Assembly: GCA_026399375.1 (NCBI GenBank)
Contig: JAPLRD010000014.1
Location: 1 to 39,663 of the forward strand
Direction: 5' to 3'
Source: Pseudomonadota bacterium
GTDB taxonomy: Bacteria > Pseudomonadota > Gammaproteobacteria > Burkholderiales > SG8-39
Length of the DNA: 39,663 bases
In this document: in pieces, positions 8,510 through 28,447 of the stretch
Numbering within the stretch: the stretch's first letter is position 1
Layout: each line of letters begins with the position of its first letter
Translations under genes and position numbers: made by a program
Notes under the pieces: generated by a model
Seen by the model: only the letters and a program-made list of their open reading frames with translations
Databases searched by the model: none
Told to the model about the DNA's origin: nothing

Positions 8510-10204
8510 ATGAGCGATTTTCGGGCGCTGCTCTCGTTCGCCGCGCCCTACCGGGCGGCGCTGGCACTCAGCGCGCTGCTGATGCTGCTCGAGAGCACGG
8601 CCGCACTGGTGGTGCCCTGGGCTGGGGGGCTGCTGACCGACGTGCTGTTGAAATCGGGAGACACGTCCTCTGCAGGAACCGCACCGGTCCGTATCGTCCT
8701 GCTCGGCATGCTCGGACTGTTCGTCCTGCAGGCGCTGCTCAAGTTCGGCAACACCTATATTCTCGGAAACGCCGCCGACAGGATCGTCTCAGACCTGAAG
8801 ATCAGGCTCTACGATCATCTCCAGGCACTGCCCCTGGCCTACTATCAGCAGCGCCGCCTCGGCGACACGCTGGCCCTGCTCACCAACGACGTCTATGTGC
8901 TGACCGGCTTCATCAGCGGTACAGCGCTGGCGCTGGTGCCGCTGCTGTTCACGGCAGGAGGGGCGGTGGTCCTCATGTTTCGCATCCGGCCGGCGCTGGC
9001 GTTGCTGGCGGTGATCCTCATCCCAGTGTTCTACCTGCTGATGAAAATCGCCGGCCGCCGCATGCGGCCGCTGTCGGGCCAGATACAGGGAGAGTACGCA
9101 GGTGCGGTCGCCATCGCCCAGGAGAACCTCGGCATGCTGCCCGCGATCAAGACGTTCACGCGGGAGAACCAGGAATCGGCGCGCTACCGCGGGCAAATCG
9201 AACGCATTTTTCGCCTGAGCGTCAAGCAGCGCGGCATATACGCCGCGCTGGATCCGCTGGCGCAGTTGATCGCGGCAATGGGCATCGTGCTGGTGCTGGC
9301 GCTGGCGAGTTCGGATCTCGCCGAGGGCAGGCTCGCGCCGGCGCAGCTGGTAAGTTTTCTGCTGTACGCCGCACTGCTCACGCGGCCGGTCGCAGGGCTC
9401 GCCGATGTCTATGGCCAGACGCAGATGACGCGCGGCGCATTCGCCAGGCTGCGCCAGGCGATGGAAGAACCGCGGGAGCCGGCGGCGGATGTCGGCATTC
9501 CGCTTCAGGAAGTAAGTGGAGCCATCGAATTTCAGAGCGTGCACTTTGGCTATGAAGGCCGGCCGGCGGCGCTGGAAGAAGTAGACCTTCGCATCGCGGC
9601 GGGCGAGACCGTCGCCATCGTCGGCCCGAACGGCGCGGGTAAAAGTACGCTGGGCCATCTGCTGATGCGGCTGCACGAACCGTCCGCGGGGAAGATTCTG
9701 ATCGACGGCATCGACACCGCGACGGTGTCGCTGGAGAGCCTGCGCCGCCAGATCGGCGTCGTGCCGCAGCACGTGCTGCTGTTCAACGCCACGGTGCGCG
9801 ACAACATCGCCTATGGACGGCCGGAGCCGAGTCCGGAGGAAATCGAAGCCGCAGCCCGGGCCGCGCGGGCGCACGACTTCATTTCGGCATTGCCGCAGGG
9901 CTACGACACTATGATCGGCGACCGCGGCGTGCGCCTGTCGGGGGGCCAGCAGCAGCGCCTCGCGCTCGCCCGCGCACTGTTGAAAGACCCGCCGATTCTG
10001 ATACTCGACGAAGCCACGGCGATGTTCGATCCGCAGGGGGAAGCGGAATTCCTGCAAGCCTGCCACGACACGCCCAGGCGGCGCACGGTGCTCCTGATCA
10101 CCCACCGGCCGGCGAGCCTGGCAGCGGCCGACCGCATCGTGCGCATGGAGCAGGGGCGGATCGTCGCGATGCACCCCTGCAAGCCAGCGCAGCAGGACAC
10201 TTGA
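8510..10204 (+). CDS. ABC transporter, fused permease/ATP-binding (MsbA-like exporter)
   Basis: N-terminal TMD, Walker A GPNGAGKST, signature LSGGQQQRLALARAL, Walker B ILILDEAT. Confidence 0.95.
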   Translation: MSDFRALLSFAAPYRAALALSALLMLLESTAALVVPWAGGLLTDVLLKSGDTSSAGTAPVRIVLLGMLGLFVLQALLKFGNTYILGNAADRIVSDLKIRLYDHLQALPLAYYQQRRLGDTLALLTNDVYVLTGFISGTALALVPLLFTAGGAVVLMFRIRPALALLAVILIPVFYLLMKIAGRRMRPLSGQIQGEYAGAVAIAQENLGMLPAIKTFTRENQESARYRGQIERIFRLSVKQRGIYAALDPLAQLIAAMGIVLVLALASSDLAEGRLAPAQLVSFLLYAALLTRPVAGLADVYGQTQMTRGAFARLRQAMEEPREPAADVGIPLQEVSGAIEFQSVHFGYEGRPAALEEVDLRIAAGETVAIVGPNGAGKSTLGHLLMRLHEPSAGKILIDGIDTATVSLESLRRQIGVVPQHVLLFNATVRDNIAYGRPEPSPEEIEAAARAARAHDFISALPQGYDTMIGDRGVRLSGGQQQRLALARALLKDPPILILDEATAMFDPQGEAEFLQACHDTPRRRTVLLITHRPASLAAADRIVRMEQGRIVAMHPCKPAQQDT

Positions 10205-11475
10205 TGGATGCGGGAAGCAAGCCAAACCTGGATGAAAGGCTGGGCCCGGGCGCGAGTGCGCTGCTCGGGTTTCTTCAGCCGAACGGCGGACCTGCGGCCG
10301 CTGCCCGCGCGCGGGACCTGCCGTCGCAAACGTGGGATGAGACACTGGAGATCGCGTTGCGGCACGGCGTGGCCCCGCTGCTGCATCGTGCCCTGAAATC
10401 GGGCGGCGCTCTCGCGGAACTCCCGGAGCGTGTGCGTACACGGCTCGAGGAAGAACGCCGCACGAACGGCCTGCTCAATATGCGCAAGTACGGCGAATTC
10501 AGACGCATTGCACAGGCGCTGCACGAGCAAAACATTCCGCTCATCGCGCTCAAGGGGCTGCATCTGGCCGACCTCGTTTATCGCGACATCAGCTTGCGAC
10601 CGATGAGCGATCTGGACGTCCTGGTGCCGCGTTCGGAGGTGGAACGAGCGCTGGCGTCCCTTCAATCCATCGAGTACGGTTTCGCAGAGGATGTGTCCGG
10701 TGCGGCTTGCGCAATGCTTGCCACAAAATGCAATATCGGGCTTGCACATCGGCGGCTGGGTTTGTGCCTGGAGATTCACTGGACGCTCGCCGAGCCGGGT
10801 GACGGCTACATTCCTCCCATGGACGAGATCTGGCGCAGCGCGACCTTCGGGCATCTCGGGGATGCCGGCGTGCAGCTCATGTCGCCCGAGTTCATGCTGC
10901 TGCACGTTTGTGCGCATCTGGCCTACAACCACGTCTTCGGCTTTGATCTGCGCGCGCTGTGCGACATCGCCGAGATCGCAAGGGCGCGAATCGACTGGGT
11001 AGTCGTTGCCGATCAGGGCCGGCGCCACGGCTGGACGCGAGGGGTCGCCGCAGCGCTCAGACTCGCCCGCGATCACCTCGGCGCCGACATTCCCGCCGAG
11101 ACCCTGGCCGTCTTGGGGGCGGACGCGCTGGCCCCTGACCTACTCGACGACGCGATGGAGCATCTATTCGCTTTTTCCGGGATGCCGGGCGAACTGGTCA
11201 CCGCGCCCAATCTGCTTGCTGTCGGTGGCGGCGCTACGCTGCGGGCAAGACTTGCGATGCTTTGCAAGAGGATTTTCGTGTCTCGAGCGGAGCTGTCGCT
11301 GCTCTACGGCGTGCCGGCGCATGCCCCGCGCATTGCGCTCTACTACGCCGTACGCCTGCGCGATCTGTTGCGAAAGTATGCGGCGAGCGCATGGGCGCTC
11401 CATGTCTCCGACCCGCGGCTGGAGGCGGTCGCTGCGCGCCACGCACGGCTCGCGCGGTGGATCGCGGGCGGCTGA
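10204..11475 (+). CDS. Nucleotidyltransferase family protein (NTP_transf_5-like)
   Basis: 'IPLIALKGLHLADLVYRDISLRPMSDLDVLVP' nucleotidyltransferase core; start overlaps ABC stop (TGATG). Confidence 0.88.
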   Translation: MDAGSKPNLDERLGPGASALLGFLQPNGGPAAAARARDLPSQTWDETLEIALRHGVAPLLHRALKSGGALAELPERVRTRLEEERRTNGLLNMRKYGEFRRIAQALHEQNIPLIALKGLHLADLVYRDISLRPMSDLDVLVPRSEVERALASLQSIEYGFAEDVSGAACAMLATKCNIGLAHRRLGLCLEIHWTLAEPGDGYIPPMDEIWRSATFGHLGDAGVQLMSPEFMLLHVCAHLAYNHVFGFDLRALCDIAEIARARIDWVVVADQGRRHGWTRGVAAALRLARDHLGADIPAETLAVLGADALAPDLLDDAMEHLFAFSGMPGELVTAPNLLAVGGGATLRARLAMLCKRIFVSRAELSLLYGVPAHAPRIALYYAVRLRDLLRKYAASAWALHVSDPRLEAVAARHARLARWIAGG

Positions 11476-11565
11476 GCGGTTCCGGCGACAGCGGCTGCTT
11501 AAGCTGTTGCGGAAAGAATGCTCTTATGCGGTACGCATTGCGCCAGGGTGCTGGCGGAAAAAACG

Positions 11566-12711
11566 CTATCTCTGTGCCGCCATCCAGATGACGGCATGAT
11601 TCCCGGATAACGATCTTTGCGACCCGGCGCCGGCGGCCGGTTCAGGCTTTGTCGCCGGCCCCTTTTGCAGCAGGTTCGGCGACGGCACGCCGGTGAGGGC
11701 AAGGGATTTCTCGCAATCCTGGGTCGAGGGTCCGCGCATGTTGCCTTCGGTGTAGGCGAGCCCGGGGCAGCGCGAGCAGCTGCCGCCATGCACGCAGCTT
11801 GAACAACCCTGCAGCTCGGCCATGGTGATTGCGCGCACTTCCTTCAGCGCGGCCGAGTTCTGCCAGATTTCGAGAAAACGGGTGTTGCGCACATTGCCGC
11901 TGGGCAGGGGGAACTGCACGCAGGGATAGAGGTCGCCGTAGGGCGAGACGTAGCATGCGGTATGCCCGGCGCTGCAAGGCAGGGAGTCCAGGGCGTCCGC
12001 TTCCGCCAGCGGACCGCTCGGTGGCGCGCAGAACTCTTCGGCATTGCCGACCAGCGTCGAGTCGCGGAACACCTGCTCCAGTTCTTCGGGGGCGATGTTC
12101 AGTCCGAGTATCGAGCGATCGCCGTCCAGCATCGGGGTGATCGTGGGATCGACGCTGTATTCGACGCCGAGCCCGGCGGCGAGCGCCTGCACTTCGGCGT
12201 AATCGTCGACGTTGTGCTTCATCAGCACGTTGGCGAAAATGACCCTTACGCCATTTGCCCGCAGCAGCCTGGCGCCCTTGATGGTGTGCGCGAAGGACCC
12301 GGGAAGCTTGGTGATCGCGTCGTGCACCTCGGCCCGGTGCGAGTAGAGGCTGATCTGCACCGATGCTACGCCCAGGTCCGCGATGCGCTTCGCTTTGGCT
12401 TTTCTGATCATCACGGCGTTGGTCTTGAGCTTCACAGAAAACATCAGCTTGCGCGCGTATTCGACGATTTCGAACAAATCCCTGCGCAGAAAAATCTCGC
12501 CGCCGCTGAGGATCAGGAACAGCACTCCGGCCGCCGCCAGTTGATCCAGCAGATCCTTGATTTCCGGCGTGGTCATCTCGCCGTGGTCGTCGTGATCGAG
12601 ATAGCAATGCACGCATCGCTCGTTGCAGCGATAGGTCAGGTCCAACTGCACGCTCAGCGGAATACCCAGCTTGAGCGCCTTGGCGCCGAGTTCATGCATC
12701 AGGCCGCTCAT
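11566..12711 (-). CDS. Radical SAM/SPASM domain protein (putative peptide maturase)
   Basis: CNERCVHC (CX3CX2C); SPASM-type Cys-rich C-terminus 'YGDLYPCVQFPLPSGN...CSSCVHGGSCSRCPG'; ATGA overlap with upstream PqqD-like gene. Confidence 0.92.
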   Translation of the reverse strand: MSGLMHELGAKALKLGIPLSVQLDLTYRCNERCVHCYLDHDDHGEMTTPEIKDLLDQLAAAGVLFLILSGGEIFLRRDLFEIVEYARKLMFSVKLKTNAVMIRKAKAKRIADLGVASVQISLYSHRAEVHDAITKLPGSFAHTIKGARLLRANGVRVIFANVLMKHNVDDYAEVQALAAGLGVEYSVDPTITPMLDGDRSILGLNIAPEELEQVFRDSTLVGNAEEFCAPPSGPLAEADALDSLPCSAGHTACYVSPYGDLYPCVQFPLPSGNVRNTRFLEIWQNSAALKEVRAITMAELQGCSSCVHGGSCSRCPGLAYTEGNMRGPSTQDCEKSLALTGVPSPNLLQKGPATKPEPAAGAGSQRSLSGNHAVIWMAAQR

Positions 12712-13028
12712 GCAGAGGCCTTCGCCGGCGGGCGCGAATCGGGGAGCGGCGCATCCGACAGCACGAGTATGCCCTGGCGGGCCAGTTCCTCCGCCAGTTC
12801 TTCGGCGTCGCGCAGCGCCGTCGCCGCGTCCACCGCATAATCCGCACAGATGTGCTGTTCGACGATTTGCGCCAGCGGCGTAATCCCGTCGGCCGCCTGC
12901 CACAACACGGAGGCGGTTTCGTTCAGGCTGTACAGGGACGAGTCGGACCCGGACATGATCATCATCTCGCCGCCTATCATGCGCGCGGCGACATTGGCCG
13001 CGCGGGCGACATAGCGCTGCGTGCTCAT
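12708..13028 (-). CDS. PqqD-family (RRE-like) protein
   Basis: 'GGEMMIMSGSDSSLYSLNETASVLWQAADGITPLAQIVEQHICADYAVD' is a PqqD-like winged-helix pattern; 106 aa. Confidence 0.88.
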   Translation of the reverse strand: MSTQRYVARAANVAARMIGGEMMIMSGSDSSLYSLNETASVLWQAADGITPLAQIVEQHICADYAVDAATALRDAEELAEELARQGILVLSDAPLPDSRPPAKASA

Positions 13029-13831
13029 CGAATCAGATCCCAGGCTGCGGCCTCGGGCCGGAACGTCAGCCGCAACACCGGCACGTGCTCGACCAGATCG
13101 AGAGCGGACAAGAACACTGCCCGCACCAGTTCAGCGTCTTCGGCGAAAAAAAGCATATTGGCCAGAATACCACGCGCCGCCTCGGCCTTACCCACGTCCG
13201 ACACGCGGTTTTCCGCGCCCTGCGCGAGCAGATAAATGGTGTCCAGCGGCGCGCGCAGGTTGGCGCCGACGCGGGCCAGTTCGCCCGCGAACGGCGTGCC
13301 GTAGGCGTAGTAGCCGCCGGCTTCCTTGCGCACGTAACTGATTTCGTCGGTCAGCACGTCGGCGTCCGGCGGCGCGAGGCGCGCAAGGGTGGTCTTGCCC
13401 GCGCCTGAAACCCCAGAGAATACAAACGCCCTGCCGTTGCGCACCGCGCTCGCCGCATGCAGCAGGAAGCCGCCTTCGCGCGCCAGCACCAGCGTGTGGA
13501 CGATGCGCAGCACGGTGTCGATGGAATAGGGATTGGCCGATTGGCGTATGCGCCCGCGCCGCGTCGCGGGATCCCACTCGGCGCGAAAATCGCCGCGCTC
13601 GAGCAGCCAGAGGCCGTTGCTGCGGTACACCCTTACGTCGTCGTCGGCCGAGCCTTCATGCGGCTGCGTCAGTTCGACCTCGAATTCGTAGTCGGGTGAA
13701 GCGCCGAATTCGACGAAGCCGGCGTAGCGGTGTTCGAGCAAGCGCCGGAAACCGGCGTCTGAACTGCGCACGCCCACGGTGACACCGCCGATGCAGATAT
13801 CGACGCGGCCGTTCGCGGCTGCACCGGTCAC
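13025..13831 (-). CDS. HPr kinase-like (HprK-related) P-loop protein
   Basis: 'GGFLLHAASAVRNGRAFVFSGVSGAGKTTLARL' Walker A, 'VLTDEISYV' Walker B. GTG start at 13831 forms a GTGA overlap with an upstream stop; the longer ORF to 14014 is probably not used. Confidence 0.87.
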   Translation of the reverse strand: MTGAAANGRVDICIGGVTVGVRSSDAGFRRLLEHRYAGFVEFGASPDYEFEVELTQPHEGSADDDVRVYRSNGLWLLERGDFRAEWDPATRRGRIRQSANPYSIDTVLRIVHTLVLAREGGFLLHAASAVRNGRAFVFSGVSGAGKTTLARLAPPDADVLTDEISYVRKEAGGYYAYGTPFAGELARVGANLRAPLDTIYLLAQGAENRVSDVGKAEAARGILANMLFFAEDAELVRAVFLSALDLVEHVPVLRLTFRPEAAAWDLIR

Positions 13832-14249
13832 AAGTCGACCCGGCTGTGTGCGCCTTGCAGGCGGGTGAACAGGCGGCCCGCCATTGCTGATCGACGAAAC
13901 AGGGCTGCCGCTATGCGCGCGGGCAGGGTAGTCTTGGATGCATTGCGAACGGCGTTTCCCCGGCGTTCTATGCGCGTTCGGCGACGGCGTCACCCTGGGT
14001 GACGAGGCGCGCACCGGATCGCGCAGTCACTCGGTGCGCGAACAGTCGGCGCTGGCGGAGATAGACGACGATATCGCCTTGCGCGGCGGCTTCGATTCCG
14101 CATTGCCGGATCAGGAGCACATCGTCTGGCCGGACCGCCGGTAGCATGCTCGAACCGGTAACACGCAGGCGCAACGCGCCGAAAGAGCGGATCGCCTCCG
14201 CGGCCAATTCGTTCTTCAACAAATCACGCGGATCGAATGGCACTTCCAT
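13828..14249 (-). pseudogene. S24/S26 signal-peptidase-like gene, apparently frameshifted in its 3' part
   Basis: 'LRVTGSSMLPAVRPDDVLLI...GDIVVYLRQRRLFAHRV' (Ser/His peptidase core) stops at 13968; a plausible C-terminal tail continues in another frame to TGA 13830-13828. Confidence 0.65.
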
Positions 14250-14262
14250 GACGCGGTCGTCG

Positions 14263-14448
14263 CTAGGAATTTTTGCGGTTACGCCGGCACTGGCTTTGCG
14301 TGTTGTTGATCTTGCCGCAGGCGAGCGCCATGGTTTCGAATATCTGCTCGTGGCGGAACGCGGGTTTGATGTACGGCTTCTTTGGCGCGTCGCCAGGTGC
14401 GGAAGCTGGCATAACTATCGTTCTTTCTGGATTCTTCGGTTCACTCAT
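14263..14448 (-). CDS. 61-aa candidate RiPP precursor peptide
   Basis: MSEPKNPERTIVMPASAPGDAPKKPYIKPAFRHEQIFETMALACGKINNTQSQCRRNRKNS; two Cys near C-terminus; directly upstream of the peptidase/kinase/PqqD/rSAM genes on the same strand. Confidence 0.72.
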   Translation of the reverse strand: MSEPKNPERTIVMPASAPGDAPKKPYIKPAFRHEQIFETMALACGKINNTQSQCRRNRKNS

Positions 14449-14493: not shown

Positions 14494-16686
14494 CTATTGT
14501 AGCGCCGCCTGGCTCGCCTGCACGGCGTTACCGGTTGTGCCGTTGCCCAAGGTCGAGTAATAAATTTGGGATGCGCCGGTGGTCGAGGAAATATTATCGA
14601 TGATAATCCCGCTGGTACCGCCAGTCGCAACGAAACCGGCGGTGGCAACCGCCACCGTTCCCCACGTCAAACCGGTAAGGTTGAACATGTAGATGCAGGC
14701 GCCGGTACACCCAGTGTCATTGCCGCTTGCAGTTACGCTTGCGTATATGTAGTCATTTCCGTTGTTCATGACCTCGGTGATGGCGGAACAATCCGCGTTG
14801 GCGCTGACCAGGGTCGGCCCGAGGACGGCGTTGCTCATCGCGTTCCCGCCAATGGGTATCTGCCACAGCGTCGGTCGCCGTGCGGTGTTTGCCTGATTGC
14901 CGCAAACGTAAAGGTGGCCGGCAGGGCTCGCGGGGGTCGGGCTGTTGTAGTACGCATCGTCAAATGTTCCCGCGTACAGGAATCTGCCGGTGGTGCTGAC
15001 CGAGCCCCTGCCTACCTGCACTTTGGTGCCCGTGCTGCTGCCGGCGAATGCGGTTGGAAATTGGTAAACGGCCGCACAGGGTGAAGTGGTGCAAATGCCT
15101 GCGGTTGTGCCGCTCACGTCGGTGGCCACGAACGCATACACGCGCTGCGCCGTGGAGTCCACGATGGGGGCATCTCGGACTCCAGAGCTGCTCGCGGTTG
15201 CGAGCTGTCCGCTGCTCACAAACGTGCCGTCTGAATTCACGGCGTGAAGCCGTCCGCCGGTAGCGGCGCCCGCGGTGCTGCCGACAAAGACCTTGCCGCT
15301 GCCGAAATCATACACGGGCGAACTGAGTATGTTGCCCGGGCTCACGGCAACCGGCCAGCCGGCGGCCGTGACCTCAGCCGGTGTGCCACCGAAGACGCCG
15401 GTGAATTTGTGCAGACTGCCGTTGTCGTCGCCGACAAACAGGATGTCGTCTCCATAGACGTAGTAGGGCGAGGAGTTCGAGTTGTCAGGGCTACCGCTCA
15501 GGGCAATGACCGTCATGCATGGCGCGGTACACGCCCGGTAGCCCGCCAGCGTCGTATTGGTCGGTGTCGTGGGCGCGCCTACGGTTCCGACCGAGACGGT
15601 GTTACTCCACTTGAGCAGCACCAGACTTGCCACGCCGGCTGTGCGTTGCACAAACGCCACTTGCGCACCGTCGAGCGAGAGCACGGGGGAGCTGTCCGCA
15701 ATGGCGCCGTTCCCGGTGTTGTAGGACCAGAAGGTGGCGGGCAAGGGCGTCGAAGCCGTTTCGCAGGTGGTCTTGTAAAGCCGGTTGAAGGCAACGATGG
15801 TCGGCTGTCCCGCGGTACCGGATCCGCCGGCCAGTGTATTGGCCGTCCACGTGAAGCGGCCAGTGCTGCTCGCCAGAGTGGTGTTGGCGCCGGTCGCCCC
15901 TGTGGTGATCGCAGTGAGCGTGACAAGGGCTCCCGCGCTGGTCGCGGTGACGCCGGCGGTGCCGCCGTTGCGGTTGATCGCGTTCGCCAGGTTTGTTGCC
16001 GTGGCGGCAATGCTGCCACCTTGCGCGAAAGTGAAGCCCGAGTTCGTAGTCGTATTGTTGCTGGAGAGGACGAGCGGCGGCGAGCCGGTATGCGTGATGG
16101 TTACGGTCCGGGTGGTGCCGCCGGTAAAGTCTTGACTAAAACTGCCGGTCTGACTCGCCGGCGCGCCGGAACTGGTGGCGCCGGGTGACGTCGTGGTGTA
16201 AGCCACAAAATCGCCGGTGCAGTCCGCGGTTGCAAAGTCTGCACCGAATTTCGCCGGGAAAACATTTGCTTTGCCAACGCCCGCGGCTCCGCCCAGAACG
16301 TTGCTCCAATCGCGGTATGTGTCCTGTCCGGCGGCCGGGGGCGGACCCCTGTGGAATCGTTGGGCCCACTTGCGCTGCTCCGGCGAGAATGGGCTGTGTT
16401 CCGTGGCTTGTACGAAACGCCCTTTCCTTGCGACCTGCGCGGCGTGGCGGGGATCCTTGTTCTTCTCCTTCCATTGCTCGAAGGCGAGCGTGCCTTTGCG
16501 CGCGGCTTCGTCGCGGGTGTCGGGGTTGGGGTAGAGCAGGTGCTTGTGGCTCCAGTCCTGCGGCGCACCGCGACTCGCCTCGGGCGCAGCGGCTTGCGCG
16601 AAGACGGACGCGGGTCCGGCGGACAAGAGCCCTGCCGCGGCAGTCATAAATGCCAGAATAAAAAACCGCTGCGCACTAGGTAACAT
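14494..16686 (-). CDS. Large secreted protein (730 aa) with probable beta-propeller-like C-terminal region
   Basis: Signal peptide 'FFILAFMTAAAGLLSAGPASVFAQA'; Thr/Gly-rich middle; repeated 'GDDNGSLHKFTG', 'GGRLHAVNSDGTF', 'GHLYVCGNQ' blade-like motifs. Confidence 0.8.
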   Translation of the reverse strand: MLPSAQRFFILAFMTAAAGLLSAGPASVFAQAAAPEASRGAPQDWSHKHLLYPNPDTRDEAARKGTLAFEQWKEKNKDPRHAAQVARKGRFVQATEHSPFSPEQRKWAQRFHRGPPPAAGQDTYRDWSNVLGGAAGVGKANVFPAKFGADFATADCTGDFVAYTTTSPGATSSGAPASQTGSFSQDFTGGTTRTVTITHTGSPPLVLSSNNTTTNSGFTFAQGGSIAATATNLANAINRNGGTAGVTATSAGALVTLTAITTGATGANTTLASSTGRFTWTANTLAGGSGTAGQPTIVAFNRLYKTTCETASTPLPATFWSYNTGNGAIADSSPVLSLDGAQVAFVQRTAGVASLVLLKWSNTVSVGTVGAPTTPTNTTLAGYRACTAPCMTVIALSGSPDNSNSSPYYVYGDDILFVGDDNGSLHKFTGVFGGTPAEVTAAGWPVAVSPGNILSSPVYDFGSGKVFVGSTAGAATGGRLHAVNSDGTFVSSGQLATASSSGVRDAPIVDSTAQRVYAFVATDVSGTTAGICTTSPCAAVYQFPTAFAGSSTGTKVQVGRGSVSTTGRFLYAGTFDDAYYNSPTPASPAGHLYVCGNQANTARRPTLWQIPIGGNAMSNAVLGPTLVSANADCSAITEVMNNGNDYIYASVTASGNDTGCTGACIYMFNLTGLTWGTVAVATAGFVATGGTSGIIIDNISSTTGASQIYYSTLGNGTTGNAVQASQAALQ

Positions 16687-16846: not shown

Positions 16847-18214
16847 TCATGCGTGCGGATCGACGTGATAAAGCGAAATCCAGGCGAATGCGAGCAGCAA
16901 CATGAAGGTCAGCGCGTTGGACGGAATCTGCAAATTGAAATCAGCGAAGCTGTGGATCATCAGCGCCAGGATGCCCATCATGGCGGCGAACGACAGACCG
17001 CGCATCAGCGGGTCGCGGCGCTGATGGTGGGCCCGCAGCGCCGTCGCAAACGACATCAGGACCATCAATCCGAGAAGCGACACGCCGACCGCACCGGCCT
17101 CGGCGGCAAATTCCAGATAGTCGTTGTGCGCATGCGTGTACGACACCTGCGTTCCTTCGCCGCTATAGCGCGGAAACACGGAATGGAACGATCCCAGGCC
17201 CGAGCCGAACACCGGATAGTCTTTCCACATCTGAGCGGCGTAGCCGGCGACCTCGTCCCGGTCTTCGGTTTCCGCGGTGGTCTGCGCGATGCGTTCGACC
17301 ACGCGCTGCGTGCCGAAATAGGTGCCGACGATGAAGGTGTCGATCGCGACCAGGCTGACGAGGAGGATGACCATTGATTTGGTCGCCCGCTTCGACAGCA
17401 ACAGGCCGATCGCGCCGGTAATCATCAGGCTGATGAAGAAGGAACTGTTTCCCATCCTCGAGCGCGTGAGCACCAGCGCGACCACCATGATTACCAGCCC
17501 GAGCCGCAACGCCATCTTCGGACTGATGATCCATTGGATCATGCCTTCGAAAAATCGCTTCCAGGACTGATGTTGGGCGCCGGACAGGTTCGCGATCAGC
17601 ACGCCTATGCCCACCGACAGGCACATTGCAAGGTAGCCGGCGAAATGATTGCGGTTGACGAAGGTGCCGGACGCGACCTGCCCTACGCTTTGCAGGCTGG
17701 TCAGGGCGCCGTACATCGCCTGGAATACTCCCGACGCAATTAACGCGTAGGCAGCAAAGCGAATCCGGTCGCGGCTGTTCAGCAGGATCAGGCTTAAGGC
17801 AAAGAACGCGATGTAAGCCGTGCTCTTGCATGCGGCTTCCAGCGTGGCATATCGGTCCAGCGTCAGCGGCACCGCACCCGGCGCATCGGGCGCGGCGGCC
17901 GCAAGGTACCAGCGTGCGGCATCGGGTGAAAGCAGTTTCAGCAGCCCGATGGGCAGCGGCAGCAATTGCAGCCAGACGTAGCAAAGCCACAGCGCGCCGC
18001 ACAAGAGCATGGGCCGCGCATCGCGCAGTATGGTGGGGAAGGCGAATTTGCCGCGGATGATGCCCGCCAGCCACCAGAGCGCAAGCGCCAGGACCCAGAG
18101 TGCGAGCACGGCCCAGGACCAGGGGCGGTTGCTGCCCAGGGGGATGGGCGCCCATAGCAGCAGGGCCAGATAAAGGATAAAAAACCAAATGCCGCTATCT
18201 AGTCTTCGGGACAT
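16847..18214 (-). CDS. O-antigen ligase/Wzy-like polytopic membrane protein
   Basis: Multiple TM segments; 'LVLTRSRMGNSSFF' and 'GSGLGSFHSVFPRY...SYTHAHNDYLEFAAEAG' are WaaL/Wzy_C-type motifs. Confidence 0.88.
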   Translation of the reverse strand: MSRRLDSGIWFFILYLALLLWAPIPLGSNRPWSWAVLALWVLALALWWLAGIIRGKFAFPTILRDARPMLLCGALWLCYVWLQLLPLPIGLLKLLSPDAARWYLAAAAPDAPGAVPLTLDRYATLEAACKSTAYIAFFALSLILLNSRDRIRFAAYALIASGVFQAMYGALTSLQSVGQVASGTFVNRNHFAGYLAMCLSVGIGVLIANLSGAQHQSWKRFFEGMIQWIISPKMALRLGLVIMVVALVLTRSRMGNSSFFISLMITGAIGLLLSKRATKSMVILLVSLVAIDTFIVGTYFGTQRVVERIAQTTAETEDRDEVAGYAAQMWKDYPVFGSGLGSFHSVFPRYSGEGTQVSYTHAHNDYLEFAAEAGAVGVSLLGLMVLMSFATALRAHHQRRDPLMRGLSFAAMMGILALMIHSFADFNLQIPSNALTFMLLLAFAWISLYHVDPHA

Positions 18215-18232
18215 GGCTACCATACAAACGAA

Positions 18233-18262
18233 CAGGCCCGGAAGCTTGCACTGCCGGGCCTG
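18233..18262 (-). terminator. Hairpin between FecR-like and ligase-like genes
   Basis: caggcccgg (18233-18241) / ccgggcctg (18254-18262), followed on the minus strand by T-rich ttcgtttgt. Confidence 0.5.
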
Positions 18263-18287
18263 CCCGAATCGAAACCGGATGCCTTCG

Positions 18288-20039
18288 TCAGCACGGGCTT
18301 CCTGTGCAGGTAGCTCTGACTCCGCCGCCAGGGGTGACCGTGGGCGAGATCGGCGCAACCGGCATCGCCAGCGGCGGTGCCAAGGCAACCAGGGTTTGCG
18401 CCGGTCCTGAGGCGGTCGCGGGCAAGGCTGTCAATGCGCTTGCGAAAATCGCCGCCGCCACGGCCTGAGAGGCCGCATTGGCGGTTTGGGTCGCCGTGCT
18501 CGCCGCCTCGGCGGCTGCCACTGCCGCAGCCTGCAAACGCGTGTTCGAGGGGTCCGCATTCGCGGCGGCCTGAGCGCGGTTTGCTTCGGCTACGGCGGCT
18601 GCTGCTCTTGCCGCGGCTGCTACCGCGACTGGCGCATCGTCTGGAAGCCCCGACAGCTGCAAGGCTGCCGTGGCTTGAACGAAGCCCAGCGATGTTCCCA
18701 CCGCCACCGGTTGGTCGGGCGTATTCTCCGGGCCCCATAGATTCGACTGCTCGACTCTGATCTTGTCGATCGGGCCGTACGGGGTGTGCACGGAAATCTC
18801 GCCGACGCTGACACGGGCAACCCCGGCCTCCTTGCCTTTGGTATCGACCGCAACGGTAAAATCGGCGGGTCCGGTGCTGAGTATGCTGATGATCGACGCG
18901 CCCGCGGCGATGCTGGTCGCGTCGCGGTTCTCGGCGTGAATGCTGCCGGTGACGACACGCATCACACCGATGTTCAGGTCCAGCGCCGCCCTGCCTGCCT
19001 TGACGTCGCGCGGATCGAACTGATACTGATCGATGGTGAAAATCGAATCCGGGCCCAGCACCACGATCTGGCCGTCCGCAAACTTGAGCACTGCGCGCCC
19101 TTCGGCGCCGGTCGTGAACGTCGTGCCCGCTTCGAAGGTGTTTCCGGCGCCCGCGTTCAACGCCTTTCCGGTCGCGGACCGTATCGAAACGTTGCTTGAG
19201 GCCGCATCCACATATCCGGCCAGCTTCTGCTCGTTGCTTGCCGCCTGCGCCAGGGTCGCGGCGGTCGCTATCACCGCCATGCGCGCTGCCGAGGCGACGA
19301 TCACCGGCGCGTTGGTCGGAACGACCAGCGACCACAGGCCTGCCACCGCGGCCTGAACGACCGCAGGCGCCGCGGTAATCGGCAGCGGGGGAGGAGGCGT
19401 GCGCCCCGACTGCCAGGGCGCATATTGTCCGGCGTCGATTTTGTAAATCGGACCGTAGGGTGTGCGCACCGAAATCTCGCCGCGTGCGACCACGGCCGCG
19501 CCGGTTTCTTCCGGTTCCGGAGTGACCAGCACGGTAAAGTCGGCGCCCCCGGCCTTGAGGATGCTGAGCGTCGAATCCCCGGCGCTGATGCGCATGCCTT
19601 CCCGGTTGGTCTCGCCGATGAGGCCCGTTACGACGCGCATCTCGCCCCGCAGCAAATCCAGGCTCGAAACGCTTTGTCTGAGATCGCCGGCGACGAAGCA
19701 ATAGCGGCCTATGTGCAGGGTAGAGTTCGGGCCCAGGGCCACGACCTGTCCGTCGGCGAACTTCAGGATGGTTTTCTCGTCCGGGCCGGTGCGGAATACC
19801 GTCTCGGATTCGAACTGATCCCCGACTTTGGTCGGCGCTTCCTTGGCGGATGTGCGCGCTATCGTGCCGGCGCCGGACATTTCGTGCACGTATCCGGCAG
19901 GGCCGCAGCCGGATCCCGCGCCGCCCCTGGACTGCGCGAAAGATACGGACGAAAAAACGGCGAGGGCGAGCAATACGCAACCGGAGCCGAATGCGCCAAA
20001 TAATTTGGTATTGCGGGGTTTAGTAAGACTGGTGCTCAT
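18288..20039 (-). CDS. Secreted protein with two FecR-like domains and Ala-rich C-terminus
   Basis: Signal peptide; duplicated blocks 'ILKFADGQVVALGPNS...MRVVTG...ISVRTPYGPIYKI' and 'VLKFADGQIVVLGPDS...MRVVTG...ISVHTPYGPIDKI'. Confidence 0.85.
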   Translation of the reverse strand: MSTSLTKPRNTKLFGAFGSGCVLLALAVFSSVSFAQSRGGAGSGCGPAGYVHEMSGAGTIARTSAKEAPTKVGDQFESETVFRTGPDEKTILKFADGQVVALGPNSTLHIGRYCFVAGDLRQSVSSLDLLRGEMRVVTGLIGETNREGMRISAGDSTLSILKAGGADFTVLVTPEPEETGAAVVARGEISVRTPYGPIYKIDAGQYAPWQSGRTPPPPLPITAAPAVVQAAVAGLWSLVVPTNAPVIVASAARMAVIATAATLAQAASNEQKLAGYVDAASSNVSIRSATGKALNAGAGNTFEAGTTFTTGAEGRAVLKFADGQIVVLGPDSIFTIDQYQFDPRDVKAGRAALDLNIGVMRVVTGSIHAENRDATSIAAGASIISILSTGPADFTVAVDTKGKEAGVARVSVGEISVHTPYGPIDKIRVEQSNLWGPENTPDQPVAVGTSLGFVQATAALQLSGLPDDAPVAVAAAARAAAAVAEANRAQAAANADPSNTRLQAAAVAAAEAASTATQTANAASQAVAAAIFASALTALPATASGPAQTLVALAPPLAMPVAPISPTVTPGGGVRATCTGSPC

Positions 20040-20809
20040 GGACGCTGGCCCTGTTTCAATGCATTGCCGGAACTTGCCGCTGCGGCATTTTTGCAGTCGG
20101 AACCGGCAATTACCTCATACTTACGTATAGCACAAATGAGGTCGAAACGTCTGTGACTTTTTACCACTTCAAACATCTTCTGCGGGTTGCGCGACGCCCC
20201 GCGTTCGATGGTCCGGACCAGGGTATGGCGCAATTCCGGATCAAGATCCCGCCATACCGCTAGCCCCACAAATAAGACCGTCTGCTGGACCGTTGGTTCC
20301 CACGGGCCGAGTTCGTCCGCGTGGCGCAATGCCGCCCGCAATTCCCCATCGATTTCGTTCAGGTACAGCTTGGTCAATGCCAGGTTTGCCCACAGGAAAG
20401 GCGAGGTCGGGCGCTGAATCAGCGCCTGCCGAATCCGCGCGTAGGCGCTTTTCGTGGCGGCGAGTGCTTCGCGCGGAACTCGTGACCCGCGCATTTTCGC
20501 CAGATCCAATGCTCCGGCCGCTTCGAGCGCCCACGGATTGTCGGAAACGTAAGAAAGGCTGTCGGCGAAGAATTGTGCACTGCGTTTAAGCTCTTCTTTG
20601 TCCGGCGAGCGGGATTTCGCCTCCCAACGGTCGATTTCGAACTGGCCGAGTTGGACCAGCAGGCCCGAAGCGCCCAGTCTCGCGACCTGCGTTGCCACAA
20701 GGGCGAGAAAAACAAACAGTGCGATATAGGCTGCTTTGTCTCGTCCGCGTTCGTTCGTTCGATGAACAGCCCGGACCCGGCCGTCTCCGCCCTGATTGCG
20801 CGCGATCAT
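20036..20809 (-). CDS. Single-TM, TPR-like hypothetical protein
   Basis: TM 'AAYIALFVFLALVATQVARLGASGLLV'; helical repeats; ATGA overlaps at both ends. Confidence 0.7.
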   Translation of the reverse strand: MIARNQGGDGRVRAVHRTNERGRDKAAYIALFVFLALVATQVARLGASGLLVQLGQFEIDRWEAKSRSPDKEELKRSAQFFADSLSYVSDNPWALEAAGALDLAKMRGSRVPREALAATKSAYARIRQALIQRPTSPFLWANLALTKLYLNEIDGELRAALRHADELGPWEPTVQQTVLFVGLAVWRDLDPELRHTLVRTIERGASRNPQKMFEVVKSHRRFDLICAIRKYEVIAGSDCKNAAAASSGNALKQGQRP

Positions 20810-21897: not shown

Positions 21898-22836
21898 TCA
21901 GCGCCGGTCGGGTAGGGCCGTAGAGCGCGCTGCGCCTTGCGCTTCGGCAGCAGCGATAAAACCAACCAGCGTATCGCACCCCGAAGTCGCGCCGTGACCG
22001 GCGACGCGCAGCGCGAGCGTCAGCGCCCTGGACGCCGAAACGCGCGGCAAGGCGCGCACCCACTCGATGAGATGGCTGCCGAATTCGCCGCGGGCTGCCG
22101 CCCTGATATAAGTCGCTCCGGCGTCGGTCGTCAACCGGGGAAGTTCGGCTTCGAGCGATCGCATGGCCGCGATGACCGGCGCGTTCCAACCCTCGGTCGC
22201 CCAGGCATGGGCGATCACGCCGGTCGCGAAATCATCCCCCGCCGGCGTCGTCCCGGCGCCCAGGCCGACCAGCGCACGTAACGTTCTCGCCGCCGAGGCG
22301 CTGTCACAGTGGAGATCGACGAGAAGTTTTCGCCAGCGTCCGCGCGGCGCGAGCAATTCGGAGGCCGTCGCGCCCAGGCCGAGCGGCAGCGCGGATGCGC
22401 GCAGCCATCGCGCCACGGCGGCGATGTTGGCGCGGGCATGAGCGGATTCGATGGATTGCGGACGCGGCGTCAGCATTGGTCGAAATGTCCGCACGCCCTC
22501 GACATCGAGACGCAGCGTCAACGCATCGCCTGAATCGAAGGCTGAGGCATCGCTGTCATCGATCGCGTCCAGCACGCGCTCCAGGTCGCGCGCGCGTACG
22601 ACGATGTGCGCCGGCAGGAGTCCGATGCCGGGCGTGCTCATGAAGATCGCGTCCTCGGACCTGCGCATGCCCAGGCTGACACCGTGGCTATGTTCCGCCC
22701 TGACTATCGGGTCACCGAAGGCCAGCGCATCGCGTACGGCGGCGCTGATCGCCAGCGGCCGGATGGCGAGCGAACGCAGGGTGGGCTGCAGCGTTGCCGC
22801 AGCCGTGGTTCGCACAGCGGCGCCCGGCGCGAGCAC
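21898..22836 (-). CDS. allH: DUF2877 protein, AllH-like oxamate transcarbamylase subunit
   Basis: 'LVGLGAGTTPAGDDFATGVIAH' motif; GTG start overlapping upstream stop (TAGTG); gene neighbourhood. Confidence 0.8.
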   Translation of the reverse strand: MLAPGAAVRTTAAATLQPTLRSLAIRPLAISAAVRDALAFGDPIVRAEHSHGVSLGMRRSEDAIFMSTPGIGLLPAHIVVRARDLERVLDAIDDSDASAFDSGDALTLRLDVEGVRTFRPMLTPRPQSIESAHARANIAAVARWLRASALPLGLGATASELLAPRGRWRKLLVDLHCDSASAARTLRALVGLGAGTTPAGDDFATGVIAHAWATEGWNAPVIAAMRSLEAELPRLTTDAGATYIRAAARGEFGSHLIEWVRALPRVSASRALTLALRVAGHGATSGCDTLVGFIAAAEAQGAARSTALPDRR

Positions 22837-24098
22837 TAGAACGCGTATTCCACGCGGCGCTCCGTCCTGGCGACGATGCGGCCGCGCTTGACCACGACGT
22901 TCCGCGCGGGCAGGTCGATGATCGCGTCGGATACCTTTAGCGTATCGAGCAGCACCATGTCTGCGTCCCTTCCCACCGCCAGGCCGTAGTTGGGGAGCCG
23001 CAGCGCCCTCGCCGGATTGGTCGTCAGCATCGGCAGCACCGTCGCCTGGTCGTCGGCGCCGCCCAGATGGCAGGCGGGCAGCGCCAGCGCCGCGATCTGC
23101 AGCAGGTCGCCATTGCCGTAGGGCGTGAACGCATTGCAGATGTTGTTGGTGGCGAGGCAGACGTTCACGCCGCCGTCGCGCAATGCGCGCACCGGCGCCA
23201 GCGTGCGCCGCACATTGGTCTCGTCCTTGCGCCCGCCCAGATGCAGGTCGGTCGCCGGCAGGCACATCACCGAAATGCCGGCGTCGCGCAGGAGCGCGAT
23301 GATTTCGTTGCGGCGCTGCGGCGTCGCCGCGCCCAGGGCGGTGAGATGGCCGACGCTGACCCGGCCCTGATACTTGCTCTCGATGGTCTTGCGCGCGAGG
23401 TATTCGATCGACATCGCGTCCGCGTCGTCGCGGAAATCCTGGTGGAAATCGAGGTCCTTGTCGAAATCGCGCGCGAGTTTGAACACCCAGTCGATATGTT
23501 CGCGCGCGTCGGTATCGTTGTACGGGATGCCGCCGACGACGTCGGCGCCCTTTTTTATCGCCTCGACCATCATCGCATCGGTGCCCGGCGTCTTCAGGAT
23601 GCCTTCCTGCGGAAACGCGACCACCTGGATGTCGATCACACCGGCGAATTCCCGGCGCAGATCGAGCACGGTGTCGAAACCGGTGAAACCCTGCGCCGGA
23701 TCGAACTCGGCGTGCGCCCGGACGTGGGTGCTGCCGAAGCCGACCAATTGCCGCAGCACGCGGCGCGAGCGCGTCTCTATGTCCTCGCGCGTGAACGTCG
23801 GCTTGAGCGAGGCGGTGACCGCGATCGCCTCCATCAGCGTGCCCGAGCGGTTCGGCTTGCGGTCCATTACGAACGCTTTTTCCAGATGCAGATGGCTTTC
23901 AATCAAACCCGGAATCAGCACGCGTCCGGCTGCCTCGATCTCGGTCGTTCCACGGCATTCCAGTTTGGGTGCGACGTCCGCGATCCGTCCCTGCGCGATG
24001 GCCACGTCCATCAAGGGCGCCCCGTCGGCCAGGCGCGCCTGGCGAAATACCAGATCCGCCGCAGCCGGCGTTGCGGCATTGCTTGCCGTCGCGCTCAT
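22836..24098 (-). CDS. Amidohydrolase, cytosine deaminase-like
   Basis: 'VLIPGLIESHLHLEKAFV', 'HAEFDP', 'DLDFHQDF', 'ATNNICNAF'; ATGA overlap with AllG-like gene. Confidence 0.9.
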   Translation of the reverse strand: MSATASNAATPAAADLVFRQARLADGAPLMDVAIAQGRIADVAPKLECRGTTEIEAAGRVLIPGLIESHLHLEKAFVMDRKPNRSGTLMEAIAVTASLKPTFTREDIETRSRRVLRQLVGFGSTHVRAHAEFDPAQGFTGFDTVLDLRREFAGVIDIQVVAFPQEGILKTPGTDAMMVEAIKKGADVVGGIPYNDTDAREHIDWVFKLARDFDKDLDFHQDFRDDADAMSIEYLARKTIESKYQGRVSVGHLTALGAATPQRRNEIIALLRDAGISVMCLPATDLHLGGRKDETNVRRTLAPVRALRDGGVNVCLATNNICNAFTPYGNGDLLQIAALALPACHLGGADDQATVLPMLTTNPARALRLPNYGLAVGRDADMVLLDTLKVSDAIIDLPARNVVVKRGRIVARTERRVEYAF

Positions 24099-25372
24099 GC
24101 GTGAATCCCGTTTTCGATGGCCAGCGCTTCCAGCGCCTGCTCGAAGCAACTGATCGGCGGATGCACGGTTCCCGCGCCGACCTGTCCGATGCCGGCTTTG
24201 CGGTGGGCGATGCCGGTATTGATCACCGGCGTGATGCCGGTCTCGACCACGCGGCGCACGTCGAGTCCGAGGCACGCGCCCTGAAAGTCCCAGGTCGGAA
24301 TCTGGAACATGGGGTTGGTGTCGATGTAGATCTCGCGCATTTCCTCGCTGATTTCGAGCGCCTCGGCGAAACCGCCGGCGCCGACGAAGCGGGTCACGCC
24401 CGGTGCTGCGATCATCGCCGCGCCGCCGATGCCCAGGGTCTCCGTGATCGCGCTGTCGCCGATGTCCGGGCTGGCGTCTGCCTGCGTGTAGCCGGTGAAG
24501 AACAGGCCGGACGGCGTGTTGACCGGCGCGGTGAACCAGCGCGCGCCCAGGCCGCTCACGCGGATGCCGAAGTCGCGGCCGTTGCGCGTCATGGCGGTGA
24601 CGATGGAGCCCGCCTTTATCCTTGCGCCTGCGTCCATCACGCATTTGCCATAGGCCATGGCGACGTTGAGGAAGAACTGGTCGGTGCGTCCCAGAAAGCG
24701 CAGGCTTTCCTGCTGCGCAGCCGCACTCGACTTGCCGCCGGCGATCTCCGCGGCCAGCGCTTTCAGCAGCAGCGCGGAGGCGGCGATGTTGCGCTGGTGA
24801 AATTCATCCCCCATGGTGATCGCCTGCGCCATCAGCGCCGTGAGGTCGATGCCGTCGGGAATGCGCGCGAGCGCATCCGAGAGGGTCGGTCCCAGCACGT
24901 CGCGCATCCAGGCGTGCCGCGTCTGCACTTCGCCTTCGTAGGCGCCGAAGCGCATCACCTTGCCGATGCCTTCGTTGAGGTTGCAGTAGGCGAAGTTGCC
25001 CTGCTCGGCGTTGCGCACCACGAGCACCGGCATGTGGCGCGAGGTGATCCCGCCCATCGGGCCGACCGCGGAATTGTCGTGACAGGGCAGGAAGCGGATC
25101 TTGCCGGATGCGGCCAGTGCTTCGGCTTCGGCCGGGTTCGCGGCCCACTTTTCGAACATGCTGGCGCCGAGCACTGCGCCCTGCATCGGCCCGGTCATGT
25201 CCGGCCATGCGATCGGCGGGCCCGCGTGCAGCAGGGTCATGCCGTCGCTTAGCGCCGGGATGCAGGCCTCCGCCGGCTTGACGTCGACGAGACGCGGGCG
25301 TGCCTTCTTGATTTCCGCGATCACCGCGGCGTTGGCTTGATTCAGATTTTCGTACATTGCTTCTTGCTCCAC
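24095..25372 (-). CDS. allG: DUF1116 protein, AllG (YlbE)-like oxamate transcarbamylase subunit
   Basis: 'MTLLHAGPPIAWPDMTGPMQGAVLGA', 'FLPCHDNSAVGPMGGITS', 'VMDAGARIKAGSIVTAMTRNGRDFGIRVSG'. Confidence 0.85.
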   Translation of the reverse strand: MEQEAMYENLNQANAAVIAEIKKARPRLVDVKPAEACIPALSDGMTLLHAGPPIAWPDMTGPMQGAVLGASMFEKWAANPAEAEALAASGKIRFLPCHDNSAVGPMGGITSRHMPVLVVRNAEQGNFAYCNLNEGIGKVMRFGAYEGEVQTRHAWMRDVLGPTLSDALARIPDGIDLTALMAQAITMGDEFHQRNIAASALLLKALAAEIAGGKSSAAAQQESLRFLGRTDQFFLNVAMAYGKCVMDAGARIKAGSIVTAMTRNGRDFGIRVSGLGARWFTAPVNTPSGLFFTGYTQADASPDIGDSAITETLGIGGAAMIAAPGVTRFVGAGGFAEALEISEEMREIYIDTNPMFQIPTWDFQGACLGLDVRRVVETGITPVINTGIAHRKAGIGQVGAGTVHPPISCFEQALEALAIENGIHA

Positions 25373-25379
25373 GTCATTG

Positions 25380-27044
25380 TCATTGCATCAGCGCGATCAT
25401 GCGCTGCAGGCGCTCGTTGCCGCCGGCTGCGGGCTGCCACTGCTGGTGTACCGTGCGGATGCCGTTGGCATGCAGATCGTCGGCGAAGCCGCGCAGGCCG
25501 ATATTGATGACGCGCGGCATCGCGGCCAGCAGCGCCGGCGGCGTGTCTTGCGACTGCGCTTGTGCGCTGACTGCGCGCGCCGCCAGCATCACTGCCGCAC
25601 GCGTGCTGTCCGCGATCACGATCCCGGCTTCTTGCAGCGCGGCGGCCTGGCCGCCGTGGTCTTGCGGGTCCCCGACGGTGCCGGTCAGCGTGGCGATCGC
25701 GACGAGGGGCGAATTGTCGCCGCGCGCGGCCCGCAGCGCCGTCACCGCGCGTGCCACTTCGCCCGCCGGATCGGGGTGTGCACCGTAGCCGAGCACGACG
25801 TCGAGCAGCAGCACGCCGACCGCCGGATCGCCGGCGAGGCCCATGATCATTTCGTTGCGCGCCGCGGGATCGATCATCGGGTGCGGCCGGCCGCGGGTAT
25901 AGGCGTCGTCGCCGAGGTCGACGATCCGGTGGCCGCCGCTGCGCAGCATGTGCCCCTCAGCGTGCGCCGCGTCGTGCTCGAGTTCCAGCGCCTCGGCGAG
26001 CAGCAGCGCGGCTTCGGCCGCCAGCGTCCCGCCGGTATAAAGGCCGCAGATGCCGCGTCCCGCGACCCCCGGCAGCGAGGACGCGCGCTCGTCCGTGCCT
26101 GCAAGCTCGAACGCGAGCATCGCCGCTTCGTCCAGGGTGCGTGCGAGATGCACAGCGCCGATGTTGCGCCGGTCCGGCCGCTCGCCCAGAAACAGTGCGA
26201 CCACCGGCTTGCCCAGCGCCTGCATCGCTTCGAGGATGCGCGCCTTGACCGCCGCCGCGGGCGGCTTGGAGACGAAGGCAACGACACGGCTGGCGGCGTC
26301 GCGCGCGACGAGGTCCAGCGCCGTCAGCGCGCTGATGCCGCCGATGCGTTCTGAAAGGTCTCGGCCGCCGAGTCCCAGCGCGTGCGTGATGCCCCCGCCC
26401 AGGCGCGCGATCTGCGAAGTAAGTTCCTGTATGCCCGTGCCGGAGGCGCCGATGACCGCGATGGGCCCGGACGGAACGCGGTTGGAGAACGCGAGCGGCG
26501 CCGAACGGATGATCGCCGTGCCGCAGTCCGGTCCCATCAGCAGCAGTCCCCGCGCGCGGGCCAGCGACTTCAGTTCGAATTCCTGCTCGATGTCCACGTT
26601 GTCGGAAAACATCATCACGTGGCAGCCGTCCTCCAGCGCCTGGCGCGCGGGCTCGAAGGCGTAGTGGCCGGCGATCGATATCAGCGCGACGTTGGCATCG
26701 GGCAGCAGCGCGCGCGCTCGGCGCCAACTGCGCGCGACCGGGTATCCGGCGCGACGGCTGCCGCGGGCGAGTTCCGCCAGCCGTTCCTTCAGCTGCGCCG
26801 CCATGGCTTCGGCCGCTGCCGGATCATCGTCGTCACTGTCGACGACGACGCACAGGTCGTTCGGCGTGGCGGCTGATAGCGTTTCGTGCCAGAGCCCGGT
26901 TTCCCTATACACGTCCTTGTTGGCCGGGGTCCCCATCATCACCGAGACGCGGTTGACCCCGGGGGCCGCCGAGAGGTCGCGCGACAGCACCATCAGCGTC
27001 ACTGAATCCTGGAACACCCCTTTGATAAGCGCCGCACGCAACAT
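25380..27044 (-). CDS. allF: FdrA/AllF-like acyl-CoA synthetase-related subunit
   Basis: 'FQDSVTLMVLSRDL...GVNRVSVMMGTPANKDV', 'LLMGPDCGTAII', 'VIGASGTGIQELTSQIARLGGGITHALGLGGRDLSERIGGISAL'. Confidence 0.88.
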   Translation of the reverse strand: MLRAALIKGVFQDSVTLMVLSRDLSAAPGVNRVSVMMGTPANKDVYRETGLWHETLSAATPNDLCVVVDSDDDDPAAAEAMAAQLKERLAELARGSRRAGYPVARSWRRARALLPDANVALISIAGHYAFEPARQALEDGCHVMMFSDNVDIEQEFELKSLARARGLLLMGPDCGTAIIRSAPLAFSNRVPSGPIAVIGASGTGIQELTSQIARLGGGITHALGLGGRDLSERIGGISALTALDLVARDAASRVVAFVSKPPAAAVKARILEAMQALGKPVVALFLGERPDRRNIGAVHLARTLDEAAMLAFELAGTDERASSLPGVAGRGICGLYTGGTLAAEAALLLAEALELEHDAAHAEGHMLRSGGHRIVDLGDDAYTRGRPHPMIDPAARNEMIMGLAGDPAVGVLLLDVVLGYGAHPDPAGEVARAVTALRAARGDNSPLVAIATLTGTVGDPQDHGGQAAALQEAGIVIADSTRAAVMLAARAVSAQAQSQDTPPALLAAMPRVINIGLRGFADDLHANGIRTVHQQWQPAAGGNERLQRMIALMQ

Positions 27045-27060
27045 GGTCCGCACTCCGAAT

Positions 27061-28116: not shown

Positions 28117-28184
28117 CCAATAAGATAAGAATATACGACTGCGAAACAATCGTTCAATTCTAGACAAAGCGCAAGGAGGCGTTA

Positions 28185-28447
28185 TTTGAATCTTTCGAAC
28201 AATCGGGGCCGCGGCCCGGGTCAAACAGGGAGACCTGTGACGCGCGCCCCGTTGGCGGACCCGCAGATCTACCCTTCGTTCGAGAGGGTCAGTGTCTAAG
28301 GCAACGGAGTCAAGGGATTGGGCGGCGAAGAACCCGGCGGCTGCTCATGCGCTCTTGGCGCAGCCGATGTGATCGACCGGTGGCGGCCTTCGCCAGCGGG
28401 CGCGGCGGCGGCCCGCCCCGCGCTCCCGATTGTTCGAAAGATTCAAA
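28185..28447. promoter_or_regulatory. Divergent promoter region bracketed by a 23-bp perfect inverted repeat
   Basis: tttgaatctttcgaacaatcggg (28185-28207) and cccgattgttcgaaagattcaaa (28425-28447). Confidence 0.8.

Follow-up and report, generated by a model that had tools for sequence, protein, structure and literature searches.

The DNA stretch analysed here (39,663 nucleotides; hereafter the window) carries a gene cassette that, with a probability of about 0.7 judged from sequence comparison, is best explained as encoding a RiPP that resembles the linear polyphosphorylated peptides (LPPs), is modified by a radical SAM (rSAM) enzyme and is probably phosphorylated at its C terminus. This work established the gene content and order of this system, how far it is conserved and what it co-occurs with, as well as its catalytic residues and folds assigned by comparison. 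On the minus strand, the genes for a precursor peptide, an S26-like peptidase, an HprK-like kinase, a PqqD-like RRE and an rSAM/SPASM enzyme converge on a plus-strand pair encoding an ABC exporter and an NTP_transf_5 protein (Table 1). The gene set and positions named in a preliminary description of the region were borne out by the sequence and by family matches, and the convergence by the coordinates.

Table 1. Coordinates of the cassette and neighbouring genes in the window
Feature	Coordinates	Strand	Length	Basis
MsbA-like ABC exporter, LppD-like by type	8510..10204	+	564 aa	family matches
NTP_transf_5 protein, possible phosphate tailoring	10201..11475	+		PF14907, 6e-56
Radical SAM/SPASM enzyme	11566..12711	-	381 aa	Pfam Radical_SAM and SPASM
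PqqD-like discrete RRE	12708..13028	-	106 aa	PF05402, 4e-13
HprK/PEPCK-fold kinase	13025..13831	-	268 aa	alignment, AF2 model, Foldseek
Out-of-frame S26 C-terminal tail	13828..13980	-		translation; tblastn to L053 and L118 at 53%
S26/SipW-type (SpI-like) leader peptidase, N-terminal part	13968..14249	-		Pfam/NCBIfam S24/S26 matches
RiPP precursor	14263..14448	-	61 aa	conserved in relatives
Secreted protein, predicted beta-propeller fold	14494..16686	-	730 aa	AF2 and Foldseek, co-occurrence
Wzy_C O-antigen ligase-like protein	16847..18388	-		PF04932, 3e-19

Overlaps of 4 bp join the HprK and PqqD genes (13028-13025), the PqqD and rSAM genes (12711-12708) and, on the plus strand, the exporter and NTP_transf_5 genes (10201-10204). 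Three such junctions had been claimed for the minus strand. The first two hold, but the peptide and S26 genes are separated by a 13-bp gap, and a third overlap (S26/HprK) is obtained only if the out-of-frame S26 tail, with its TGA at 13830-13828, is counted. A scan for promoters and terminators performed no better than chance level. The operon probably extends upstream to the gene for the secreted propeller protein, which ends 45 bp before the peptide gene and is a conserved neighbour of the cassette.

To collect relatives, GTDB genomes were scanned once for the rSAM sequence; of the 79 loci obtained, 75 were taken as the cassette family. Most of these rSAM relatives showed 55-85% identity, and most come from Acidobacteriota (Terriglobia); others belong to a Burkholderiales MAG (85%), Rhodoferax (76%), Thermomonas beijingensis (69%) and Nevskia soli (62%). 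All five core genes (peptide, S26, HprK, PqqD, rSAM) occur together in 62 of the 75 loci. Their order was the same in 61 of these 62, across two phyla, and the median gap at the last three junctions of the complete loci was -4 bp. Among 249 genomes from the order of G665 (Granulicella), each of the 44 high-scoring kinase places adjoined a high-scoring rSAM, as determined by pairing two match lists by hand. The rSAM, ABC and PqqD families are individually common, and genes of this kind might in principle come to lie side by side without any shared function. This notion of a chance neighbourhood was rejected as next to inconceivable, given the gene order conserved in 61 of 62 complete loci from two phyla and the 44/44 adjacency of kinase and rSAM.

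In the rSAM tree, the window enzyme and those of L053 and L118 form a group embedded in acidobacterial sequences, and the Nevskia enzyme lies elsewhere. Given these separate positions, at least two transfers of the cassette to Pseudomonadota are likely. HprK and rSAM searches through the order and class to which the window genome belongs gave no close relative, and a plasmid collection yielded distant rSAMs and unrelated clusters only. Two loci of the family are reduced: L082 lacks the kinase and L111 both the kinase and the RRE, and the peptides of both keep the C-terminal Ser. The L082 genome also carries a complete second cassette.

The precursor alignment comprised 65 peptides, including that of the window, and gave the consensus KKPYxKPxFRxExVFETxALxCGK...C......S, in which the leader motif KKPYxKPxFRxExVFET is followed by a core of about 22 residues. 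The leader Tyr and Pro are kept in 64 of 64 sequences (one further sequence begins later), and the Phe, both Cys and the C-terminal Ser are each present in all 65. Leu occupies core position 3 in 64 peptides and Val in one, Gly (62/65) and Lys (64/65) stand beside Cys5, and the core measured past F[E/V]T has 22 residues in 50 of the 65. In the window, the leader ends in ...KKPYIKPAFRHEQIFET, and the predicted core is MALACGKINNTQSQCRRNRKNS (22 aa, with Cys5, Cys15 and Ser22); the putative cleavage site was placed by analogy with the FET motif of LPPs (PMC13381572). The penultimate residue is highly variable. Among the 64 relatives, the codons TCG, TCC, TCA and TCT specify the final Ser 22, 20, 12 and 10 times, respectively. 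The use of all four TCN codons next to a variable residue indicates that the terminal Ser itself is held while its codon drifts. A search with the peptide alone returned chance matches only. The consistent absence of a small peptide at this position from homologous clusters would have told against the preliminary description; the alignment shows the peptide to be conserved, with invariant Cys and Ser.

The S26 gene of the window is the one damaged member of the set. As read, its product has 93 aa, compared with 142-250 aa in all 71 relatives, and alignment to the nearest relative, L053, located 43 missing bp and a shifted frame at 13968-13980. The tail can be read in another frame, and its TGA overlaps the HprK GTG at 13831 by 4 bp, so the kinase most likely starts there. 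Residues S34, H72, D87 and D93 are invariant among 21 aligned S26 relatives; the window copy keeps Ser34, His72 and Asp87, and the frameshift takes away the second conserved Asp. A profile of the S26 relatives matches the SEC11A/C signal peptidases at 1.6e-7. The family thus has the features of the SpI-like serine leader peptidase of LPP systems, including Ser, His and Asp, with a frameshifted copy in the window. The preliminary description was right to name an S26 peptidase here, but had overlooked its truncation.

The 43-bp gap is either a real deletion or an assembly error; the latter is possible because the assembly of the window genome is fragmented (456 contigs, 6.8% contamination). Unless such an error occurred, the frameshifted copy is possibly inactive and the window may lack a working leader peptidase. 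The copy in the window could be a relic undergoing decay, from which its host makes no mature peptide; this is a serious contender, though we put it at somewhat under even odds. Besides the frameshift and the loss of the second Asp, it is favoured by the rSAM matches of G861, from the other order searched, which came in two pieces only, with no propeller found. Set against this are the state of the assembly and the fact that all remaining cassette frames of the window are open.

The kinase residues His125, Lys146 (P-loop), Asp162 and Glu163 are invariant in an alignment of 71 sequences. Foldseek matched the AF2 model (pLDDT 89.8) to PEPCK first and to HPr kinase/phosphatase next, so that both residues and predicted fold agree with the HprK-like kinase of LPP systems. 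The conserved C-terminal Ser of paeninodin-type lasso peptides is the target of an HprK-like kinase, and in pseudomycoidin PsmN puts hexoses on it (PMC9266682). This fits the terminal Ser present in 65/65 cassette precursors. Two observations count against the best explanation. The lasso-cluster kinases are reported to have a His-Lys-Asp-Asp motif, of which H125, K146 and D162 are kept here and followed by Glu163 (compared by motif description rather than by alignment with PadeK or ThcoK), and the terminal Ser persists in L082 and L111, where the kinase is missing.

When the RRE profile was compared with the PDB, it matched the lasso RREs TbiB1 (7.5e-10) and PbaB1 (1.9e-7) and, more weakly, LppB (9x8z, 1e-3); a discrete RRE gene is also an LPP feature. 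The rSAM enzyme contains the cluster motif CxxxCxxC (C29, C33, C36) and eight further Cys (C228, C246, C264, C303, C306, C312, C315 and C333), and its Cys are kept in 73-74 of 74 aligned sequences. It shares its radical SAM plus SPASM architecture with the maturases SkfB, PqqE, SuiB and CteB; SkfB was the nearest solved structure (1.2e-21), followed by PqqE, with SuiB and CteB lower. It forms a subfamily of its own and scored far below every NCBIfam cut-off shown. SkfB forms a Cys thioether, and the pairing of a SPASM rSAM with a Cys-containing core recalls the sactipeptides and ranthipeptides. A crosslink near the two Cys is nevertheless not the sole way to read these data: once exported, the two Cys could simply pair in a disulfide, with the enzyme acting on another residue, such as the Gly-Lys following the first Cys. 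The conservation of these two residues (62/65 and 64/65) would agree with this, as would the distance from every NCBIfam cut-off, owing to which the reaction is unreadable from family membership. We consider a disulfide unlikely, as the closest structure is a thioether-forming maturase and both Cys are strictly invariant.

The closest known system (Nat Commun 2026, PMC13381572) is that of the LPPs, encoded by lppAKBSDN in Paenibacillus. Its RRE, kinase and SpI-type peptidase were examined there by gene deletion, mutation or structure, and LPPs are described as cleaved after FET, phosphorylated on core Ser3, highly variable at their C termini and restricted to Bacillota. LPP systems and the cassette have in common a discrete RRE, a YxxP leader motif, FET before the cleavage site, an SpI-like serine leader peptidase (LppS) and an HprK-like kinase (LppK); in the window, an NTP transferase (compare LppN) and an MsbA-like exporter (compare LppD) are also found. 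Both occur in a polysaccharide-locus context, with no lasso cyclase seen. In contrast, the leader spacing is Px7F (Px7FxT) in the cassette versus Px9F (Px9Fx[T/A]) in LPPs, core position 3 is Leu instead of phosphorylated Ser, and the C-terminal Ser and two Cys are invariant, whereas LPP C termini vary greatly. The hosts also differ (Acidobacteriota and Pseudomonadota versus Bacillota), and the LPP paper does not mention an rSAM enzyme, which is always found beside the kinase in the cassette, nor, in the sections considered, a partner propeller. We therefore keep the cassette apart from the LPPs on account of Leu at core position 3, the Px7F spacing and the constant rSAM gene; it most likely works like an LPP system with radical SAM chemistry added.

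With the paeninodin-type systems (PadeK, ThcoK; PsmK/PsmN of pseudomycoidin) the cassette shares the HprK-like kinase, the conserved C-terminal Ser and the discrete RRE; an NTP-transferase occurs in some clusters of that type and in some cassette loci. It differs in having an rSAM enzyme, with neither macrolactam cyclase nor B2 cysteine protease seen. No asparagine-synthase-like lasso cyclase or B2 cysteine protease was present among the Pfam-scanned window proteins, in a scan that took in all but a few of the window ORFs and a minority of the relatives. The SynChlorMet (SCM) models TIGR04249-04251, covering the HprK-like ScmC and the radical SAM proteins ScmE and ScmF, were also among the matches. 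SCM membership was rejected, as all models scored far under their cut-offs (ScmC 33.9 versus 125 bits, ScmE 100.7 versus 400). In the literature searched for HprK plus radical SAM plus RiPP and for SynChlorMet, the combination was not described. The original proposal of a RiPP-type cassette in which an RRE, an rSAM and a kinase act on one peptide, with no lasso cyclase, is well supported by these comparisons, the modification itself being a prediction.

The two facing genes are less constant. NTP_transf_5 was found in 37 of the 75 relative loci, several contigs being too short to judge, and no full-length MsbA-like exporter was seen near relatives in the 75 loci; an ABC-2 transporter takes its place in about a third of them. 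The exporter and nucleotidyltransferase, proposed earlier as cassette parts, are thus both present in the window but lie outside the conserved core, and their inconstancy counts against the best explanation given above. In about twenty loci besides L066, L073 and L075, as in these three, ABC-2 type transporter genes replace the propeller gene upstream of the peptide, and in most cases the other strand carries an NTP_transf_5 gene.

The secreted propeller is the likely partner of the peptide. Its AF2 model gave Foldseek matches to generic propellers only, and its gene adjoins the cassette in 41 of the 75 loci. Among the 249 genomes from the order of G665, 41 carry both propeller and cassette, three the cassette only, one the propeller only and 204 neither (Fisher p 3.4e-42, uncorrected for genome relatedness; G802, whose rSAM match of 217 bits was marginal, counted as cassette-free), so that 41 of the 42 propeller genomes possess the cassette. 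In 17 of these 42, all propellers lie farther than 12 kb from the cassette, and up to five copies occur per genome (G720, G905). Four of 20 stretches fetched around unlinked propellers (L179, L180, L184 and L186) contain an orphan precursor gene with no maturation cassette nearby, and searching 12 genomes revealed a fifth such gene, beside a propeller at G901:C117. When 240 genomes from the window's order were sampled, the propeller was present only in the window's own genome. The preliminary description had missed the propeller partner and the likeness to LPPs.

An RRE, a SPASM rSAM and secreted propellers together recall PQQ and the quinoproteins, and among solved structures PqqE comes second only to SkfB in its match to the rSAM. 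By this analogy, the peptide could be the source of a small redox or enzymatic cofactor, in the way that PqqE with PqqD makes PQQ from PqqA, with the numerous, often unlinked propellers as user enzymes. We regard this as improbable. The core is conserved in outline throughout, beyond one or two residues, and the orphan precursors beside propellers are easier to reconcile with a separate peptide for each propeller than with a common cofactor; furthermore, no cofactor-excising peptidase was seen among the genes examined, and the propeller matched no Pfam quinoprotein dehydrogenase family above cut-off.

For an LPP-like, rSAM-modified and C-terminally phosphorylated peptide, we infer the following steps. 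The RRE would bind the leader at YxKPxF and present the precursor to the rSAM/SPASM enzyme, which would modify the core near the two invariant Cys, most likely by a thioether or related crosslink. The kinase would phosphorylate the C-terminal Ser, a target that is less certain because the phosphosite differs from that of LPPs (core position 3 is Leu in 64/65), and the NTP-transferase may decorate the phosphate. The S26 peptidase would cut the leader after F-E-T to release a core of about 22 residues, the ABC transporter would export the product, and the mature peptide would work with the secreted propeller.

More tentatively, the cassette may represent a RiPP family, widespread in Acidobacteriota and present in some Pseudomonadota, that places an rSAM crosslink and HprK-type C-terminal phosphorylation on one linear peptide. 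Its mature product might bind the propeller as a dedicated ligand or be attached to it as a covalent adduct, and a single cassette might supply several propeller/peptide pairs in trans. Definite predictions can now be made for the substrate, the cleavage site and the phosphosite, and the phospho-RiPPs (lasso-derived and LPP, the latter reported only from Bacillota) would be extended to two more phyla, with radical SAM chemistry added. Function, which for LPPs is unknown according to their authors (PMC13381572), may be approached through the strict co-occurrence with the propeller. The cassette is common in soil Acidobacteria; as roughly 44 of the 249 genomes sampled from one order possess it, its product may matter in soil surface and biofilm biology.

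Upstream of the propeller, positions 16847-20809 of the window hold co-oriented genes for Wzy_C, FecR-domain and small membrane proteins, which suggests a surface polysaccharide locus. Wzy_C/Wzz genes were also found near L118, near the intact cassette L069 of Granulicella mallensis and near L106. Farther along (21898-28224), the window contains AllG/AllH oxamate carbamoyltransferase-like genes together with those for a CoA-ligase-domain protein and an amino-acid kinase, and this group adjoins a DctPQM transporter.
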